The translations under genes and the position numbers were made by a program. Below are positions 22,140 to 28,370 of a DNA stretch of 44,543 nucleotides, one piece after another. The stretch's first letter is position 1, and each line of letters starts with the position of its first letter. The notes under the pieces were generated by a model, which was given only the letters and a program-made list of their open reading frames with translations, was not told the origin of the DNA and ran no database searches. Source of the DNA: a virus. The DNA lies in the IMG/VR virus record IMGVR_UViG_3300025093_000039, positions 1 through 44,543 of that record, one strand, 5' to 3'.

Positions 22140-22370
22140 CTAAAATGGTGTTTTTTGTTTTGTTATTAATTCTAGTTTATTTCGTAGGTTGCCGACCGTG
22201 TAAAACTTGCTTTTAATCCAATACCCCAGACTCCCACCGTTCACAACTTTTCTGATCTCTCGACCTGTTTTGGTATTAAAACATTTGCCGTTTTTCTTTC
22301 CTTCAAATTGATATTCAGGAGCAAAAGAAATTTGGTATTTCAAACCATAAGTCTTTGATATTGTGTTCAT
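22140..22370 (-). CDS. Conserved phage protein of unknown function
   Basis: A 76-residue protein, MNTISKTYG onward. The middle has KCFNTKTGREIRKVVNGGSL, then GYWIKSKFYTVGNLR, a pattern I associate with short phage proteins without known function. The frame is open to an ATG at 22427, but those 19 codons coincide with the end of the Mom cassette and its ACCTAAC core, so the native start is more likely the ATG at 22370. It is the first phage gene after the cassette island. Confidence 0.55.
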   Translation of the reverse strand: MNTISKTYGLKYQISFAPEYQFEGKKNGKCFNTKTGREIRKVVNGGSLGYWIKSKFYTVGNLRNKLELITKQKTPF

Positions 22371-22408
22371 TGTTGTTTGGTATTGGTGTTTATAGCCGGT
22401 TGTTAGGT
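22371..22408 (-). repeat. Terminal attC-like half-site after the mom-like gene
   Basis: ACCTAAC at 22402-22408 follows the mom-like stop codon directly. It matches the RYYYAAC core and is the reverse complement of GTTAGGT at the start of the same cassette (23020-23026). The pairing continues through the A/T-rich flanks for about 20 bases with one gap. A matching GTTRRRY partner downstream is not clear, so the site may be truncated at the phage junction. Confidence 0.5.
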
Positions 22409-22999
22409 TTAATTTAATTTTCCCCACCGCACGTTTAGTTTTTTATCAAAAACTATTAAGTATCTATGTTTTCTGCTTCTTGGTCTCCATTCACCTTTAA
22501 TTCCTTTTGTTTTACCTCTGCTATGCTTTTTATACGTTCCGTCTGGTTGTTCTATCCAAAAGTCTTTTTTAGGTGCGGATAGCCCGTAATAATCAAAATT
22601 ACAAGCCTTGTAAACTGTGCCATTGTGAAAGTCCGCATCAGCATAACTTAATATAACTTTTACTCTAGTGTCTTTCCTTAATTGTCTTATAGCCCTTGAA
22701 ACAAACCAACTTGCAAGATTATGTTCATCTTTTTGTATTTCAGGCTCTAAGCACAATCTACTTAATTCAAATAGCCCCTCTTGTTGGTTTCTTTCTAGTC
22801 CTAACATTCCTTTTGCAAGTTCAGGTACAGGGAAGCCAGTAAATATTATTACACCTAAAAGAATATCATTTTTGAATATTCCGTAGTTGTAACCGCTTTT
22901 AAACCCTTTTGATATATCCTTTAAGTAGTGGTACTTTAGAAGTATAGTGCCAGCTTCTTTTTTAGATACTTCTTTTATTTGATAATCCGTTTTTGCCAT
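22409..22999 (-). CDS. Mom-like DNA modification protein (GNAT fold), cassette cargo
   Basis: A 196-residue protein. Family features I recognise are KYHYLKDISKG near 22-32, LLGVIIFTGFP, FELSRLCL at 78-84, NLASWFVSRAIRQL, and SYADADFHNGTVYKACNF near 118-135. These match the phage Mu Mom family, which converts adenine in DNA to N6-carbamoylmethyladenine and blocks many restriction enzymes. The fold is that of GNAT acyltransferases. It is the last cassette of the array and is flanked by its own inverted core (GTTAGGT/ACCTAAC). A different GNAT-type function is the alternative. Confidence 0.65.
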   Translation of the reverse strand: MAKTDYQIKEVSKKEAGTILLKYHYLKDISKGFKSGYNYGIFKNDILLGVIIFTGFPVPELAKGMLGLERNQQEGLFELSRLCLEPEIQKDEHNLASWFVSRAIRQLRKDTRVKVILSYADADFHNGTVYKACNFDYYGLSAPKKDFWIEQPDGTYKKHSRGKTKGIKGEWRPRSRKHRYLIVFDKKLNVRWGKLN

Positions 23000-23019
23000 C
23001 GCTCGAAAATTAAACTAAA

Positions 23020-23080
23020 ACCTAACATCCGCTATAAAATCATAGGCTATCGCCTACGCTTCATAGCTTTTTCATTACCC
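23020..23080 (-). repeat. attC-like site between dam-like and mom-like genes
   Basis: It runs from GGGTAAT (23074-23080) to GTTAGGT (23020-23026). The inside has AAAAAGCTATGAAGCGTAGGC, GATA as loop, and GCCTATGATTTTATAGC as opposite arm. The flanks AAAAAGCTATG and ATAGCGGATGTTA are shared with the site at 23809-23868. Confidence 0.7.
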
Positions 23081-23776
23081 ACCATACACAAATAACCGCT
23101 CGGTACTGTGCTTCGTATCACCCGTTTCGCCATTTGCCCCAAAGGTACTTACTGCGTCTTTTTGCCATACGCAAACGAAATCGCTCGGTGCGTTATATTC
23201 ACTTATGTACACCTTATGTCCTTGTTTGCTTTTCTCTCTACACCAATCCCAAAACAGGCTGTGGTCAAAGTTGGTTCGGTACTTCGTTGTGCCTTCGTAT
23301 GGGGGGTCACAATATATAATACTGTTTGGTGGTATTTCAAGTTCGGTAAAAGAGCAGTTTCTAAATTCAACACCTTTCATACTTGGCACTTGCTTCATTA
23401 TGTTGTTGTAGTGCTCTCTCCAATAATCTCTTTTACCTTGTTTGTCTCTTCGGTAGCCTGCAAACCATTTGCCCCCATACGAATTAAAACCTACGTAGGC
23501 AAGTAGTTCTACTGGGTAGCCTGTTTTGTTAGCTTTCATTTGTCGGTACTGCTCTTCTGTTACGGTTAGTGGTGGTTGCCAATCGCAAACAAGGGCTTTC
23601 CACATTTCAATAAGCTCCTTGTGTATATCGTTTGCTATTCGCTTACCTTCTACCTTGTCAATCATATTCATTCCGCCAGCAAATGGCTCTACGTAGGTCT
23701 GTGCTTCTGTCTTACCTTCCAATACTATTGGCAGTATGTACTTTGCAAACCTCGCTTTACTTCCCATATATTTCAT
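23075..23776 (-). CDS. Dam-type N6-adenine DNA methyltransferase, cassette cargo
   Basis: A 233-residue D12-class methyltransferase. MKYMGSKARFA at the N-terminus and EPFAGG at 30-35 form the SAM site, and the catalytic DPPY lies at 157-160. LLAYVGFNSYGGKWFAGY is a family-typical stretch. It would methylate adenine in the phage or host DNA; the target sequence cannot be told. The gene is a cassette: it starts behind GTTACCCACCGTAC and ends in GTATGGTGGGTAAT. The stop codon TAA lies inside the closing core. With the mom-like gene it forms a two-gene modification set. Confidence 0.88.
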   Translation of the reverse strand: MKYMGSKARFAKYILPIVLEGKTEAQTYVEPFAGGMNMIDKVEGKRIANDIHKELIEMWKALVCDWQPPLTVTEEQYRQMKANKTGYPVELLAYVGFNSYGGKWFAGYRRDKQGKRDYWREHYNNIMKQVPSMKGVEFRNCSFTELEIPPNSIIYCDPPYEGTTKYRTNFDHSLFWDWCREKSKQGHKVYISEYNAPSDFVCVWQKDAVSTFGANGETGDTKHSTERLFVYGG

Positions 23777-23808
23777 AAAATTCTCATTTTCAAATTAATA
23801 AGTACGGT

Positions 23809-23868
23809 GGGTAACATCCGCTATATTGCATACCCTTCGGGATACGCACCATAGCTTTTTCGTTAGGC
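23809..23868 (-). repeat. attC-like site upstream of the dam-like cassette
   Basis: GCCTAAC (23862-23868) to GTTACCC (23809-23815). Between them GCTAT...TGCGTATCCC, loop GAA, and GGGTATGCA...ATAGC pair with one extra-helical base, as expected for attC. It shares flanks with the site at 23020-23080. Confidence 0.75.
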
Positions 23869-23872
23869 TTCA

Positions 23873-24091
23873 TTACTTGCCCAACTCTTTTATCTTGTCT
23901 GCAATCATTCTAATACCTGTTATGCTTATAGTTGCATCACCATTTGTTTTAATGTAGCACTGTCCTTGTATTTGTCTTACTATTTCCTCACATTCTGAAA
24001 CAGTTAATAACGGAAGCCTAACATTTTGTAAAACACCATTTTCATCAGTGCTTACATTATATCTTTCTGCGTATGTTTTTCCTTTGTTCAT
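23873..24091 (-). CDS. Small cassette protein of unknown function
   Basis: A 72-residue protein, MNKGKTYAERYNVSTDENG onward. It has a beta-rich middle (VLQNVRLPLLTVSE) and a C-terminal helix (TGIRMIADKIKELGK). It ends at GCCTAAC of the next attC-like site. The gene has no close look-alike in the phage part of the genome. No family recognised. Confidence 0.55.
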   Translation of the reverse strand: MNKGKTYAERYNVSTDENGVLQNVRLPLLTVSECEEIVRQIQGQCYIKTNGDATISITGIRMIADKIKELGK

Positions 24092-24108
24092 ATTTGTAAT
24101 TTTTATTG

Positions 24109-24138
24109 TTAAAACGGTGTTTACAAGGAGCGTTAGGC
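24109..24138 (-). repeat. Short attC-like site
   Basis: GCCTAAC (24132-24138) to GTTTTAA (24109-24115). The first core is the exact reverse complement of the start of the preceding cassette (GTTAGGCGTA/TACGCCTAAC). The second core is degenerate and the site is only 30 bases long, so it may be decayed. Confidence 0.5.
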
Positions 24139-24142
24139 GTAA

Positions 24143-24424
24143 TTAAACCACCTGCCTACTATTGTCATCGTCCACAACTCTTTTTATAGGTGCTGCGTAA
24201 ACATTCAAACCAGTAATTGTGTTGCCATCATTTTCAAATGTAATGTTGGTTGTCACTTGTTCTGACTTTTTGCTTTCTTGAATTACTCCTATCCAATTAT
24301 GGTTTTCATTACTCCAACTTCCGTTTTCCATTGTAAACCCTGCTTTCCTTAAAGCCTTATCCATTAAATCAAAAAGAGTTGTTTCCTGTAATTTTCCGTC
24401 TGTATCTTTTATATAAATTTCCAT
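24143..24424 (-). CDS. Small cassette protein of unknown function
   Basis: A 93-residue protein, MEIYIKDTDGKLQETTL onward. It is acidic with a WSNENHNWIGVI stretch and a beta-type C-terminal half. The frame is open to a TTG inside the preceding attC core; the ATG at 24424 just after the core is preferred. The cassette ends are perfect: GTTAGGCGTA at the start and TACGCCTAAC at the end. No family recognised. Confidence 0.55.
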   Translation of the reverse strand: MEIYIKDTDGKLQETTLFDLMDKALRKAGFTMENGSWSNENHNWIGVIQESKKSEQVTTNITFENDGNTITGLNVYAAPIKRVVDDDNSRQVV

Positions 24425-24433
24425 AATAACTAC

Positions 24434-24565
24434 GCCTAACAATTTGTATAATTCAGTTGGCTGTTAAGCTGTATTTCCAACCTTTGCACATTTATTTAAG
24501 TTTAGTTCGGTAAGCATATCTAGTGCTATTAATGCCAACCGAAATCATACAAGTGGTCGTTATGA
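24434..24565 (-). repeat. Long attC-like site downstream of the ORF-less cassette
   Basis: TCATAAC (24559-24565) to GTTAGGC (24434-24440). TTGTATGATTTCGGTTGGC near the start pairs with GCCAACTGAATTATACAA near the end as a long imperfect stem with unpaired bases. With the site at 24581-24712 it accounts for most of the 290 bases without an ORF. Confidence 0.7.
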
Positions 24566-24587
24566 TGCAATTAAAAAAGCACATAAC
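24559..24587 (-). mobile_element. Candidate ORF-less mini-cassette
   Basis: Between two attC-like sites lie only about 30 bases: GTTATGTGC at the start and GCATCATAAC at the end. These are reverse complements of each other with one inserted base. No start codon or ORF fits, so this would be an empty cassette made only of ends. Confidence 0.45.
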
Positions 24588-24712
24588 AAAAGATAAAAAG
24601 AACAAGGGTACAGGCTCTCTCCGAAAGAGTTAACGACTTGTTACTCTGCGTTTGCAACCGCCAGTCGAACCTCAGTAGTGACCCCTTACTCATTTTATCA
24701 AAACCGTTAGGC
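24581..24712 (-). repeat. Long attC-like site after the coiled-coil gene
   Basis: GCCTAAC (24706-24712) to GTTATGT (24581-24587). GATAAAA near the first core can pair with TTTTTATC near the second. The centre has further partial pairing (GTAAGGGGTC and ACCCTTGTT). GTGCCTAAC is the perfect complement of the start of its own cassette, GTTAGGCAC. Confidence 0.6.
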
Positions 24713-24716
24713 ACAA

Positions 24717-24911
24717 TTAAGGCAACTGCCCCAACAATTCATCAATCTGGTTTTGTATCTCTTGCTTTTGTTCTTCCAACTTTTTTACTTCTTCGTAAAT
24801 CTCTTGGGCTTGTTGTGCCATCATTTCAGCTTGGGCTTGTTGTGCCATCATTTCAGCTTCGGCTTGTCCACTCATAGCTTCATTATACTCTTCTTCGCAA
24901 CTATAATTCAT
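24717..24911 (-). CDS. Coiled-coil cassette protein with internal repeat
   Basis: A 64-residue protein. AEMMAQQAQ occurs twice in tandem at about 19-36 and a Glu/Gln/Lys-rich coiled coil follows (EEVKKLEEQKQEIQNQIDELL). It is acidic with one Cys near the N-terminus. The tandem repeat is also visible in the DNA and may have arisen by slippage. The cassette ends are GTTAGGCAC and GTGCCTAAC. It may form dimers; no family recognised. Confidence 0.55.
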   Translation of the reverse strand: MNYSCEEEYNEAMSGQAEAEMMAQQAQAEMMAQQAQEIYEEVKKLEEQKQEIQNQIDELLGQLP

Positions 24912-24921
24912 AATTAAAAGT

Positions 24922-25018
24922 GCCTAACAATGGCTAAAGTTAATAGCCTCGTAAGGTCTTGTTATAATTTTAATGGTCAGTAATTAAGGCTACTAACCTT
25001 AGCCTAAGCGTTGTAGCC
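24922..25018 (-). repeat. attC-like site with long palindrome
   Basis: GGGCTACAAC (25009-25018) to GTTAGGC (24922-24928). GGCTAAGGTTAGTAGCC on one side and GGCTATTAACTTTAGCC on the other pair at 15 of 17 positions. The pairing also leaves an offset next to the core (TTAGGC against GCCA), as the extra-helical bases of attC do. This is the best attC match in the array. Confidence 0.8.
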
Positions 25019-25020
25019 CA

Positions 25021-25266
25021 TTAGTGATTGAATATGTAGTTATCATTTTCATCAAATTGAGCGTCTAATTCGGGTACGGGGTCGCAGTTTACAAACTTAC
25101 CGTTTAAACCTCCTTCCCATTTTTGGGCTTGTCTGCATTTCAAGCATACTCTATAAGTGGCGTTTTGGTATCTACTTCTACCTCTTACCTGCCATTTGTG
25201 GCGGTGCTTAAATAAACGGGCTACAACACCCGTTATAAAATCATATTCGTTCCTCATACGCTTCAT
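25021..25266 (-). CDS. Zinc-ribbon-like cassette protein whose start lies in an attC-like site
   Basis: An 81-residue protein. CLKCRQAQKW is a CxxC pair and there is one further Cys (FVNCDPV). Basic residues dominate the middle (KHRHKWQVRGRSRYQNA), so nucleic-acid binding is possible. The cassette core GTTGTAGCCC falls at codons 14-17 (25218-25227). The first 13 codons, including the ATG, therefore come from the preceding attC-like site, and the reading frame crosses the recombination point. Confidence 0.55.
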   Translation of the reverse strand: MKRMRNEYDFITGVVARLFKHRHKWQVRGRSRYQNATYRVCLKCRQAQKWEGGLNGKFVNCDPVPELDAQFDENDNYIFNH

Positions 25267-25313
25267 AGCTTATTCATTAAAGTGCATTAAAACACACAAT
25301 AACATTGTATAAC
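25218..25313 (-). repeat. attC-like site that supplies a start codon
   Basis: GTTATAC (25307-25313) to GTTGTAGCCC (25218-25227). The inside AAGCTATGAAGCGTA and ATGATTTTATAACGGGTGTTG is clearly related to the site at 23020-23080. The ATG used by the next ORF lies in this shared stretch. Confidence 0.6.
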
Positions 25314-25318
25314 ACAAA

Positions 25319-25501
25319 TTAAATTATTACACTATCGGCTTTTATTAGGCTTTCCATAAATTGAAATGTTCGTGTCAAAGCCCAATCTTTTGGCACTTCA
25401 TTTTCCATCATTACACCGTTACGAGTGCAGAAGGTTACTATCCTTGTTTCGCTATGGTATAGGGCTTTTTTACCGTTAATATTTAGTTCTATCTGTTCCA
25501 T
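25319..25501 (-). CDS. Small cassette protein of unknown function
   Basis: A 60-residue protein, MEQIELNINGKKALYHSET onward, with beta-type N-terminal half (RIVTFCTRNGVMM) and helical end (FQFMESLIKADSV). The cassette starts GTATAACAAATT and the end has AATTTGTGTTATAC, a complement with an inserted GT. No family recognised. Confidence 0.5.
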   Translation of the reverse strand: MEQIELNINGKKALYHSETRIVTFCTRNGVMMENEVPKDWALTRTFQFMESLIKADSVII

Positions 25502-25513
25502 AATTTAAAATTT

Positions 25514-25533
25514 GTTATACTTAGCGTTACATG
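25514..25533 (-). repeat. Very short attC-like junction
   Basis: CATGTAAC (25526-25533) and GTATAAC (25514-25520) face each other with only CGCTAA-type sequence between. It is too short to fold like the others, so it may be a deletion product. Confidence 0.35.
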
Positions 25534-25537
25534 CCAT

Positions 25538-25888
25538 TTAAGAATCCATGTACCAAGGCTTATTAACCTGTTCTGTCTTTTTACAGTGGCTTTTCATTCC
25601 GTCAGGCAATTCTCCACCGCTATTGCATCCATTACTTTGTATAGTATGTTCACAATCATCACACAAAGGAGCACCACATACTAACCCCATTGTTTCAGGA
25701 CACTCTCTTGTCGCTTGTGCTCCACAGCTTACACATTTTATTCCTTTGTGTTCTTCGCAGAATCCACTTTCATCAGCTTCTTTTCCACATTTGCCAACCC
25801 ACGCCTTATCAAAACGGCATGTAACACTCTGTATAAGAGCATTGCCTTGCGTGTCGGATAGTTTGGTGCTTTCTAGTTCTTTTTTCAT
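25538..25888 (-). CDS. Cys-rich zinc-binding-like protein, first cassette
   Basis: A 116-residue protein with 13 Cys and several His. GKCGKEADESGFCEEH, KCVSCGAQATREC, and LVCGAPLCDDCEHTI follow each other like three zinc knuckles, and SHCKKTEQVNKPWY ends the protein. I recall similar Cys-rich proteins as common cassette or island cargo, but I cannot name a function. It stands directly behind the promoter at 25920-25949, so it should be the best-expressed cassette. Confidence 0.6.
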   Translation of the reverse strand: MKKELESTKLSDTQGNALIQSVTCRFDKAWVGKCGKEADESGFCEEHKGIKCVSCGAQATRECPETMGLVCGAPLCDDCEHTIQSNGCNSGGELPDGMKSHCKKTEQVNKPWYMDS

Positions 25889-25919
25889 AAGTTAAACTAG
25901 CTTGTAATGTACATGGCCT

Positions 25920-25949
25920 CTAAGATAACGCAATAAAACTTATTTTCAA
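25920..25949 (-). promoter_or_regulatory. Bacteroidota-type promoter at the head of the cassette array
   Basis: On the minus strand TTG (25947-25949), 19 bases, TATCTTAG (25920-25927). The TTG and spacer resemble the promoter at 19700-19729 (TTGAAAAT..., TTTTATTG). The -7 box ends AG instead of TTA, just where the array begins with GTTATCT. A cassette entering a native promoter at GCG/TTATC would explain this. Confidence 0.7.
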
Positions 25950-25952
25950 TAA

Positions 25953-28370
25953 TTAACAAAAATTATTTTTAGAATAATATCTTTGTTGGCCATAAGGCTT
26001 TATATTTTTCCGGCTGCCTTTGGAAAACTCCCAACCCTCAAGATTTCGCAATATGTTGTTTATCTGTCTGGCGTTGAACGGGTTGAGGTCGTGTTTTTCT
26101 CTCCCTAGACATTCGCACCAAACCTCGGCAACGCTAACGACCTCTCTTTCTATCTTTCCTGAAGGGCTCAACGGATCGTTTAGGTAATTTCTCCGTTCGT
26201 GTATCTCCAGGTTGTCCCAGTCTTCAGGTAATAACCTTTCTAAATAGTCAACAATCAACCCTTCGCGATCGTCTTTCTCTGTATGTTCTTCTCTTTCGAT
26301 CTTGGCTAGTTTCTCGGCCTCTCCGTCTAAATACAGTTTTTCACCTTTCCGCCACATAGTAACCGCCTCGGCCCAAATCTGGTCTATCTCCTCTCGATCT
26401 AAAGCCCCCTCGTCGAACACATACTTTTCGATTTTGGCCCCCTCTACATCAACAGGCATAAACCGCCTATTGCCTGAAGGGTCCCGCAAAAAGTCTCTTT
26501 CGTTAGTAGTGGCGAAAAATACACATTGCCGGGGGTATGTCTCGTCGACTCTTGCGTAAGCCGGCCTATATTGGTCCTCTGTCTTAGTTATAAAGTGTTT
26601 GATTTGTTCAACCTCTGATTTTCTAACCCCTGAGAGTTCAGCCATTTCTATAACCCAGGCTCCCTTTAGTTGCTCGAATGCCTCTTTGCCGCTTACAGTA
26701 TGGAACGAATCAGAAAACCAATCAACCCCCAGACGTTTTATAAACGTACTCTTTCCCGTACCTTGAGCCCCGACAAGAGTTAACACCAAATCGAATTTTG
26801 TGCCTGGGTTGTATATCCGAGCAACGGCGGCAACGAGCGGTTTTCTAATTGCGGCGTGCGAATAGGCGTTATTTTTAGCTCCTAGATACTTAACTAACAG
26901 TTTGTTGACTCTTGGCGTTTTATCCCAGACCAACGAGTCGAGATAGTCTTTAACAGGATTGTAGCTGTTTTTAGAAAATTCCGAACGTAAAGCGTCCTCT
27001 ATTTTTGAAGGGCTTACGATCTTGTAAATCATTTCAATATAAATCCGGATATCTGCTAAATCGACCTCTCGTAACCTCCTGCGGCCTCTAAAGTCTTTAT
27101 CTGAGGGTAAGCGTTTTAAAACGTATTTATGCTTATCAAACTCATTCTCGGTAAATGCTTTCGATAGCATAGGATCGTTATTGAAAATCAGGTTTATATT
27201 TTTCGCGCTGTTGAGGATTTGGCCGTTGTTGTTATACTCTAAATCTTCTAACCAATCGTCGGAATATTCCTCAACAGGGACCGCCTCGACTGTCTCAACC
27301 TCCTCGGCGAAATCTCCAAAATCCTCTTTGGCACTCGTTACCGTCTCCAGGGCTATTGTTTTAACAACCTTTTTGTCCTCGGTGCAAAACTCCGTCATTG
27401 CCTTATAACTTTTAAGGCTTGTTACGTTGTCGGTCCTCTGGTTGCTGTCCAGGTGGCCGAATTTGTGAATGCGGACCAAATCAAAGGCGTTGCATAATTG
27501 CCCGCTTGTTGGATCGGTGCCGTGGTGGCTATATGCAAATTTATCATCGTAAACCACCAAGCCCGCACCTGCCGAGCCGTTTACATAAGTGTATCGATCC
27601 TCTCCTGCCGGTGTGTACTCCTCGCTTAGAAATTCATCTATTGCCTCCGAGATTGTGTAGGTTCTACAAAAACCACCTATCAATCCTTTTTTCTCCTGTG
27701 GGTCCTCTTGCTTATTTACCCCAGATTTAACCCGTTCAATCTCACTTGAGGAGGTCGGCCAACTCGACGAATCGGTCCAATCAACATAGGCGTTTTCTAA
27801 AATGTCGTCGACGTCTAGCCAAGGCCCTTTTTGGCTCTCGGCATAATACTCAACATCTTTAGAGGAGGACGGCCAAAACATTAAACGTTCTGTTTGAAAC
27901 GTTGTGTTATCAAAATAATCGATCCCCAGGACGCCCGCAACGTAACGAGCGACGGCCATATATTCGTCGGGGCTAACCTCCCGACTCAAAGGCATAACCA
28001 AACGATAACGAGGGGTTTTTTCACTGTGTTTATGTGTGCCATGGATAACCGCCGCATTGTCAAATGACATTTGGAAATCTAACCAAAAGTCTAAATGGGC
28101 CTCGTCAATGTCTAGGGTTATTAGTTGTCTGTGTACTACGTTCTCCGGTTTACGGCGTCCCCCTCTGAGGTAACCGCCCACATATCCGCCGACGTCTTTA
28201 ATTTTTAGTTGGTCGGTCTTTGAGGCGTTAACAAACTCTTTGTAAGTCTCATTAGTTCTGTGAGGCGTTAGTAGTTTATCCTCGATCTCTGACCAAGATA
28301 ATTTTTGGTTTTTCCATTTCTTCGATTTTACCCCGTGTGCGGTCGCAATGTCTAATAATTCGTCTGTCAT
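25953..28370 (-). CDS. Primase-helicase, VirE type with AEP-like N-terminus
   Basis: An 805-residue fusion. The N-terminal third has VVHRQLITLDID near 79-89 and VIHGTHKHSEKTPRYRLVMP near 108-127, which fit a primase-polymerase (AEP) active site with DxD-type acids and His. The C-terminal half is a VirE/D5-like ATPase. Its Walker A GAQGTGKST lies near residue 535, followed by WVIEMAELSG (Walker B-like) and FFATTNERDFLRDPSGNRR. It would open the fork and make primers. It lies 4 bases after the polymerase gene. Confidence 0.85.
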   Translation of the reverse strand: MTDELLDIATAHGVKSKKWKNQKLSWSEIEDKLLTPHRTNETYKEFVNASKTDQLKIKDVGGYVGGYLRGGRRKPENVVHRQLITLDIDEAHLDFWLDFQMSFDNAAVIHGTHKHSEKTPRYRLVMPLSREVSPDEYMAVARYVAGVLGIDYFDNTTFQTERLMFWPSSSKDVEYYAESQKGPWLDVDDILENAYVDWTDSSSWPTSSSEIERVKSGVNKQEDPQEKKGLIGGFCRTYTISEAIDEFLSEEYTPAGEDRYTYVNGSAGAGLVVYDDKFAYSHHGTDPTSGQLCNAFDLVRIHKFGHLDSNQRTDNVTSLKSYKAMTEFCTEDKKVVKTIALETVTSAKEDFGDFAEEVETVEAVPVEEYSDDWLEDLEYNNNGQILNSAKNINLIFNNDPMLSKAFTENEFDKHKYVLKRLPSDKDFRGRRRLREVDLADIRIYIEMIYKIVSPSKIEDALRSEFSKNSYNPVKDYLDSLVWDKTPRVNKLLVKYLGAKNNAYSHAAIRKPLVAAVARIYNPGTKFDLVLTLVGAQGTGKSTFIKRLGVDWFSDSFHTVSGKEAFEQLKGAWVIEMAELSGVRKSEVEQIKHFITKTEDQYRPAYARVDETYPRQCVFFATTNERDFLRDPSGNRRFMPVDVEGAKIEKYVFDEGALDREEIDQIWAEAVTMWRKGEKLYLDGEAEKLAKIEREEHTEKDDREGLIVDYLERLLPEDWDNLEIHERRNYLNDPLSPSGKIEREVVSVAEVWCECLGREKHDLNPFNARQINNILRNLEGWEFSKGSRKNIKPYGQQRYYSKNNFC

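Follow-up and report, generated by a model that had tools for sequence, protein, structure and literature searches.

A probable integron-type cassette array without an integrase in a virulent-type phage of Bacteroidota

Introduction

The IMG/VR virus record IMGVR_UViG_3300025093_000039 carries an island of approximately 3.5 kb (22.4-25.9 kb) in which small minus-strand genes follow one another between a primase gene and a small phage gene. The whole record of 44,543 bases, in which a Terminase_3 gene, primase, polymerase and structural genes are annotated, was analysed and is referred to here as the window. The locus raises the question of whether these genes form an array of integron-type cassettes and, if so, how cassettes might be exchanged without an integrase of the phage's own. 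The prevailing view is that Bacteroidota almost lack integrons and that phages seldom carry them. A sequence-only reading of the window had proposed a cluster of attC sites lacking an integrase (CALIN) and considered such an array unusual in a phage. The array itself is supported by the results presented below, but CALINs in virulent phages, including Polaribacter phage P12002L (described by Kang et al. 2015, PMC4615864), were reported by Qi et al. (2023; PMC9892861), so the category to which the window array belongs was already known. Taken as a whole the island is best explained, and with good probability, as an integron-type cassette array without an integrase, with exchange proposed to occur in trans, in a virulent-type phage of Bacteroidota.

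Results

Cassette ends and attC sites

Read on the coding strand, six cassettes of the island possess perfectly complementary own ends, four of them over 10/10 bases (c1, c3, c6 and c7 in Table 1) and two over 9/9 bases (c4 and the Mom cassette). The sequence-only reading had noted perfect or nearly perfect complementarity of own ends in four cassettes, which lie where it placed them, and its GCCTAAC cores (23862, 24132 and 24706) and GTTAGGC cores (24434 and 24922) were likewise present. In 1000 dinucleotide shuffles of the island, 10-mer end pairs occurred on average 0.10 times (maximum 2) against 4 observed, and 9-mer end pairs 0.42 times (maximum 3) against 7 observed, the seven including a pair (23015/22407) nested in that of the Mom cassette. 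The GTT of the R' cores is invariant, with the RRRY of GTTRRRY fitting some cores only.

When the whole 44.5 kb was searched for AAC-stem-GTT hairpins (stem score at least 11, loop 38-140), four were found and all lie inside the island. A covariance model, R1, was trained on 13 sites from other phage contigs with the window excluded, and 13 of its 22 model pairs covary by compensatory change. Three matches to R1 were obtained in the window, the strongest at 56.3 bits (E 1e-9), all on the coding strand within the island and none elsewhere, with a maximum of 23.9 bits on 305 kb of control loci. The covariance test suggested by the sequence-only reading therefore came out in favour of the array. 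Together with stems S3 to S6 these matches reveal tandem attC-type sites with R''-L''-L'-R' hairpins, and the three long hairpins predicted earlier were recovered, S3 and S5 by the stem search and S7 by R1 (27.1 bits). Single-sequence fold z-scores of the sites were modest (about -0.4 to -1.9) and are not the main evidence. R1 also identified three sites in P12002L and four in Polaribacter phage P12002S, but missed the published TJE1 sites and found nothing in the first 50 kb of PH101, so that it is specific to Bacteroidota-type attC. In alignment A3 of the attC stem on the coding strand, columns 23/87 and 28/82 hold almost invariant G-T pairs; on the opposite strand these turn into C-A mismatches, a possible strand mark.

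No match to IntI (TIGR02249) or to any other tyrosine recombinase was found in the window record, in keeping with the sequence-only reading, which saw no integrase, and the array is thus not a complete integron with intI beside it. Independent R1 matches combined with this absence support a CALIN-type array. An Rfam scan of the window gave no match.

Cassettes shared with other phages

Three units of the island were found in other phages with boundaries at cores. Cassette c1 has an 88% identical counterpart in viral contig L179 with both outer flanks different, the homology beginning near GTTACATGCC and stopping at the AAC of R''. The start of the Dam cassette, GTTACCCACCGTA, is also present in contigs L045, behind a terminase gene, and L096, with unrelated preceding DNA. 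The 29-bp mini-cassette, searched for with a pattern in which three letters were left open, occurs between unrelated flanks in nine other viral contigs, all but one copy being identical to that of the window. A close relative of the Dam protein (about 60-66% identity) was also observed in about 30 Winogradskyella genomes (L127-L158), where it appears to be a near-core gene, with two copies in one of them (L143).

Polaribacter phages P12002L and P12002S (NC_028924 and NC_028763; L001 and L275) come from one seawater sample and, in the region compared, differ almost exclusively in the array, identity outside it being 99.6-100%. In the P12002S array two other methyltransferase genes replace the Dam and Mom genes of P12002L, and extra units have been added. 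The breaks lie about 12 bases past R'', 2 bases past R'' and exactly at the array end (AAC/AACGG, the slash marking the break). The gene beyond this end is homologous to the gene at 22427-22140 of the window, and the ending of the same array type at a homologous gene speaks against a chimeric assembly of the window. Dam followed by Mom is the order in both P12002L and the window, the two Mom proteins being 27% identical. No mention of the array difference between the two phages was found in the accessible parts of PMC9892861 or PMC4615864. These comparisons indicate that the array is a variable accessory locus carrying interchangeable DNA-modification genes, here Dam and Mom, together with small unknown proteins.

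Genes that cross the core

The anatomy of the array proved odder than the sequence-only reading had claimed, with genes crossing the core and exchange at both R' and R''. The open reading frames (ORFs) of c1, c3 and c7 have their start codons before the cassette boundary, in the attC-like site that precedes the cassette, and run on through the core, whose GTT is read as a valine codon. Core crossing is frequent in two phage contigs with long arrays (L191 and L196), where some small genes are even contained entirely in the stretch from L'' to L'. A conserved cassette start, GTTAGCCAACANCGTGAACTGTTA, was present in 64 viral contigs and in 0 of 395 Bacteroidia genomes; in 58 of its 58 non-redundant copies the core is crossed in phase 0 by an ATG-initiated ORF, and in none in another phase. 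The front module of such a gene sits in the attC loop and the back module has its stop codon in or just before R''. Phage arrays encoding modular small proteins of this kind, with the front in the attC loop and a back module VSQQRELL..., are widespread (L191-L199 and L210-L271); their PHROG matches are weak and of unknown function, and no Pfam domain could be named for the VSQQRELL proteins.

Modules were shared between phages as the back only in 17 pairs, the front only in 6 and both in 1, and front and back identities showed a correlation of 0.04. The search pattern did not anchor the right breaks, and 8 of 15 pairs had theirs no more than 1 base from R''; the left-break statistic is partly fixed by the pattern and carries little weight. 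Contigs L212 and L214 share a front module (98% over 103 bp) attached to two different cores, the homology stopping at GTT, and c1 is preceded in frame by one N-terminus in the window and by another in L179. Differences between back modules (32/41/107 by codon position; 8/6/22 for c1 versus L179) fall mainly at third positions, indicating selection on the protein that the back halves encode; front modules show a weak third-position excess. When the ends of all shared blocks were considered, 33% versus 20% lay at GTT or AAC (p 5e-5) and control triplets were enriched less; these figures derive from a looser version of the core-proximity test, that with strict cores being too sparse. In the sequences compared, then, cassettes have complementary ends of their own and attC-type hairpins, and the ends of the blocks that distinguish relatives tend to lie at R' (G/TT) and R'' (AAC). 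The data further indicate that many small genes of related phages have their start in the attC loop and read across the core without a change of frame, and that their N- and C-terminal halves combine independently.

Arrays and recombinases in Bacteroidia chromosomes

R1 matches at E 1e-4 or better were found in 17 of 149 Bacteroidia genomes, and some of these chromosomal arrays have cassette ends with about 9-13 complementary bases. In the arrays of genome G105 (L285) and Winogradskyella algicola (L284) at least 12 cassette-end bases are complementary. A reversed attC polarity in chromosomal arrays was considered and dropped, as attC polarity and gene strand match in the 98-bp subtype (L285); a conflict was seen in the 135-bp subtype alone, for which the strand call may be unreliable. 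IntI above the family cut-off was present in 1 of the 149 genomes, which fits its known rarity in Bacteroidota (PMC9024848). This lone true IntI lies in a 3.9-kb locus (L276) of genome G220, in which no R1 match was found.

Members of a single tyrosine recombinase family stand at distances of about 0.1-7 kb from attC sites of this type in W. algicola (L283), G131, G212, G098, G155, G166 and G218, and in viral contig G043 a member lies 250 bp from an attC site. The loci with a recombinase beside attC (L283 7779-8612, L317-L323, L300, L307 and L272 1471-2286) are chromosomal except for one 101-kb viral contig. An R1 match of E 5e-4 or better was present within about 1.4 kb in three of the 30 best chromosomal recombinase loci, one of these being the Winogradskyella query locus. 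The family is termed XerA/IntI-like here, its best scores being against XerA and integron integrase models and below every cut-off. Against the IntI model the Bacteroidia enzyme reached 199.6 bits (cut-off 265) in two aligned stretches that leave positions about 181-235 unaligned, and by both score and the IntI-specific insertion it falls outside the IntI family. Members occur in 102 of 198 genomes; that of W. algicola is 277 aa long.

Features of the island and its flanks

The sequence-only reading had described eight small genes between attC-type sites. The array stands, with about nine cassettes, one of them (29 bp) without an ORF, and with three ORFs that start before the cassette boundary (Table 1). 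Besides a Dam-type adenine methyltransferase and a Mom-family DNA modification protein the cargo comprises a phrog_31941 protein, also present in Cellulophaga phages, a Cys-rich protein and several small unknown proteins. The site behind c1 is eroded and that behind c2 is weak. One attC body (AAGCTATG..GCG..TATAGCGG) is common to the sites at 23871-23806, 23083-23018 and about 25270-25218, although the cassettes differ, and these three bodies look as if they had been homogenised or copied. The island has 36-40% GC compared with about 45-47% in the neighbouring kilobases, bearing out its reported A/T-richness.

Table 1. Cassettes, attC-type sites and flanking genes of the window array
Feature	Coordinates	Strand	Remarks
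Cassette c1	25526..25825	-	Ends GTTACATGCC / GGCATGTAAC; relative in L179
c1 ORF, Cys-rich, 116 aa	25538..25888	-	Start upstream of cassette core; GTT read through in frame
c2 ORF, 60 aa	25319..25501	-	Cassette ends partly complementary; sites either side eroded
Cassette c3	25010..25227	-	Ends GTTGTAGCCC / GGGCTACAAC; ORF 25266-25021 crosses core in frame
attC site S3, between c3 and c4	24920..25019	-	Top R1 match (25018-24920), 56.3 bits, E 1e-9
Cassette c4	24706..24928	-	Ends GTTAGGCAC / GTGCCTAAC; ORF 24911-24717
attC-like site S4, between c4 and mini-cassette	24579..24714	-	Stem score 11
ORF-less 29-bp mini-cassette	24559..24587	-	GTTATGTGCTTTTTTAATTGCATCATAAC; pattern in 9 other viral contigs
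attC-like site S5, between mini-cassette and c6	24431..24568	-	Stem score 12
Cassette c6	24132..24440	-	Ends GTTAGGCGTA / TACGCCTAAC; ORF of phrog_31941 family, unknown function
attC-like site S6	24013..24141	-	L'' TTGTAAACACC, L' GGTGTTTTACAA; c7 ORF begins in loop
Cassette c7	23862..24022	-	Ends GTTAGGCTTC / GAAGCCTAAC; ORF 24091-23873 crosses core in frame
attC site S7	23806..23871	-	R1 match (23870-23807), 27.1 bits, E 0.002
Dam cassette	23074..23815	-	D12 N6-adenine methyltransferase 23776-23075; start GTTACCCACCGTA; ends 9/10 complementary, R'' terminating in TAAT, not TAAC
attC site S8	23018..23083	-	R1 match (23082-23018), 19.4 bits, E 0.096; body in common with S7
Mom cassette	22402..23026	-	Mom-family DNA modification protein 22999-22409; ends GTTAGGTTT / AAACCTAAC
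Left flank, VirE-type primase/helicase	25953..28370	-	Relatives without island between primase and VRR-nuclease/helicase
Right flank, phage gene phrog_35066	22140..22427	-	Adjoins array end AAC/AACCGG; homologue at same array end in P12002L/S

Phages with a related primase have no island at the corresponding place. The comparison with relatives that had been proposed earlier therefore documented absence of the array, but yielded no cassette-level empty site. The nearest phages of the window phage have Cellulophaga, Croceibacter, Polaribacter and Bacteroides as hosts, and the window phage itself most probably infects a member of Bacteroidota.

Discussion

The window island is interpreted here as a probable CALIN whose folded cores would be recombined in trans by a tyrosine recombinase from the host or from a co-infecting element. 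One candidate is the XerA/IntI-like family, members of which neighbour attC sites of this type in Bacteroidia chromosomes and in one viral contig that bears an array. Several observations weigh against this interpretation. The enrichment of block ends at GTT and AAC across all arrays is moderate only, and some cores (GTTACCC, GTTATGT and GTTGTAG) depart from GTTRRRY. Given the erosion of its sites near c1 and c2, the window array may be partly dead. Neither the window nor the array contigs searched encode an IntI, and other tyrosine recombinases were matched in hardly any of them. Exchange also occurs at R'', where a classical integrase acting on the attC bottom strand would be expected to produce breaks at R' only.

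That hairpins and repeats arose by chance in an A/T-rich accessory region can be discounted for practical purposes. The base composition, the modest fold z-scores and the two weak sites are what such an origin would leave, but it is refuted by the R1 match at E 1e-9 and by the occurrence in other phages of the same cassettes with corresponding boundaries, and is at odds with the shuffle tests and the independence of the covariance model. Ordinary phage mosaicism, through homologous or illegitimate recombination at short conserved stretches, with the hairpins acting as terminators or passive microhomology, deserves more attention and is nevertheless considered unlikely. Phages are mosaic in general, the core enrichment over all blocks is moderate, a 24-bp block (VSQQRELL) common to many arrays could anchor homologous exchange, and a front module shared by L238 and L196 breaks in L' at -12. 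Mosaicism does not readily account for the gathering of unanchored right breaks on R'', the change of core between L212 and L214 without downstream homology, the 29-bp unit that travels with different DNA on either side, or the co-variation of R' and R'' by which complementarity is kept within each cassette.

A further explanation, which we regard as possible whilst leaning against it, is exchange by the Bacteroidota XerA/IntI-like recombinase acting on both hairpin halves, the system being a sister of integrons rather than a degraded one. Seven genomes and viral contig G043 have a member of the family about 0.1-7 kb from an attC site of the type matched by R1, and R1 matches accompany three of the 30 loci noted above. 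Its members score below the IntI cut-off and skip IntI positions about 181-235, in genomes among which true IntI is so rare. Against this, most array phages and many attC-bearing genomes have no adjacent recombinase, and the family is so common that its members may for the most part have other tasks. Classical integrases, too, are able to act, IntI1 being reported (PMC9892861) to recombine one of two tested P12002L sites. Tentatively, and with similar reservations, Bacteroidota phages may practise site-specific in-frame domain shuffling, in which attC-type cores lie inside small genes and exchange at G/TT and AA/C would replace not only whole genes but also N- and C-terminal modules, through a non-classical-IntI integrase encoded beside the matching chromosomal arrays of Bacteroidia.

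As a CALIN the window array resembles that of P12002L in lacking an integrase, in having attC of the same model, in the order of Dam and Mom and in a homologous array-end gene. Core-crossing genes, exchange of N- and C-terminal halves and the array difference between P12002L and P12002S are not described in the accessible parts of PMC9892861 and PMC4615864. With chromosomal integrons and CALINs (IntegronFinder; PMC9024848) it shares the R''-L''-L'-R' architecture, own-end complementarity and tandem small unknown genes, but the phage arrays lack IntI and swap also at R''. A classical cassette has its ORF between R' and attC, whereas here attC loops can hold gene starts and whole small genes. 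Coding sequence likewise runs from one cassette into the next in fused class 1 cassettes (blaGES-1/aacA4; PMC4670013); in those the attC is lost and the fusion fixed, whereas here an attC-type hairpin has been kept and each half is also found in other combinations. Chromosomal arrays of Bacteroidia share with the phage arrays the R1 matches and about 9-13 complementary end bases, but differ in having long one-gene cassettes, genes inside R'..R'' and an adjacent recombinase. No description of Bacteroidia arrays with an XerA/IntI-like recombinase was found in the literature searched. As far as the papers searched show, in-frame core crossing, independent exchange of halves, breaks at R' as well as R'' and a candidate non-IntI integrase are new.

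If the exchange is site-specific, phages of this major marine and gut phylum would own a platform for gene capture through which near-identical phages exchange anti-restriction enzymes and protein halves are recombined in frame. The benefit may be a rapid change of anti-restriction genes and other accessory functions. The work also names a candidate integrase outside the IntI family and, because R'-R'' modules and L''-L' modules move separately, these arrays would offer a natural test bed for the origin of cassettes and attC sites.

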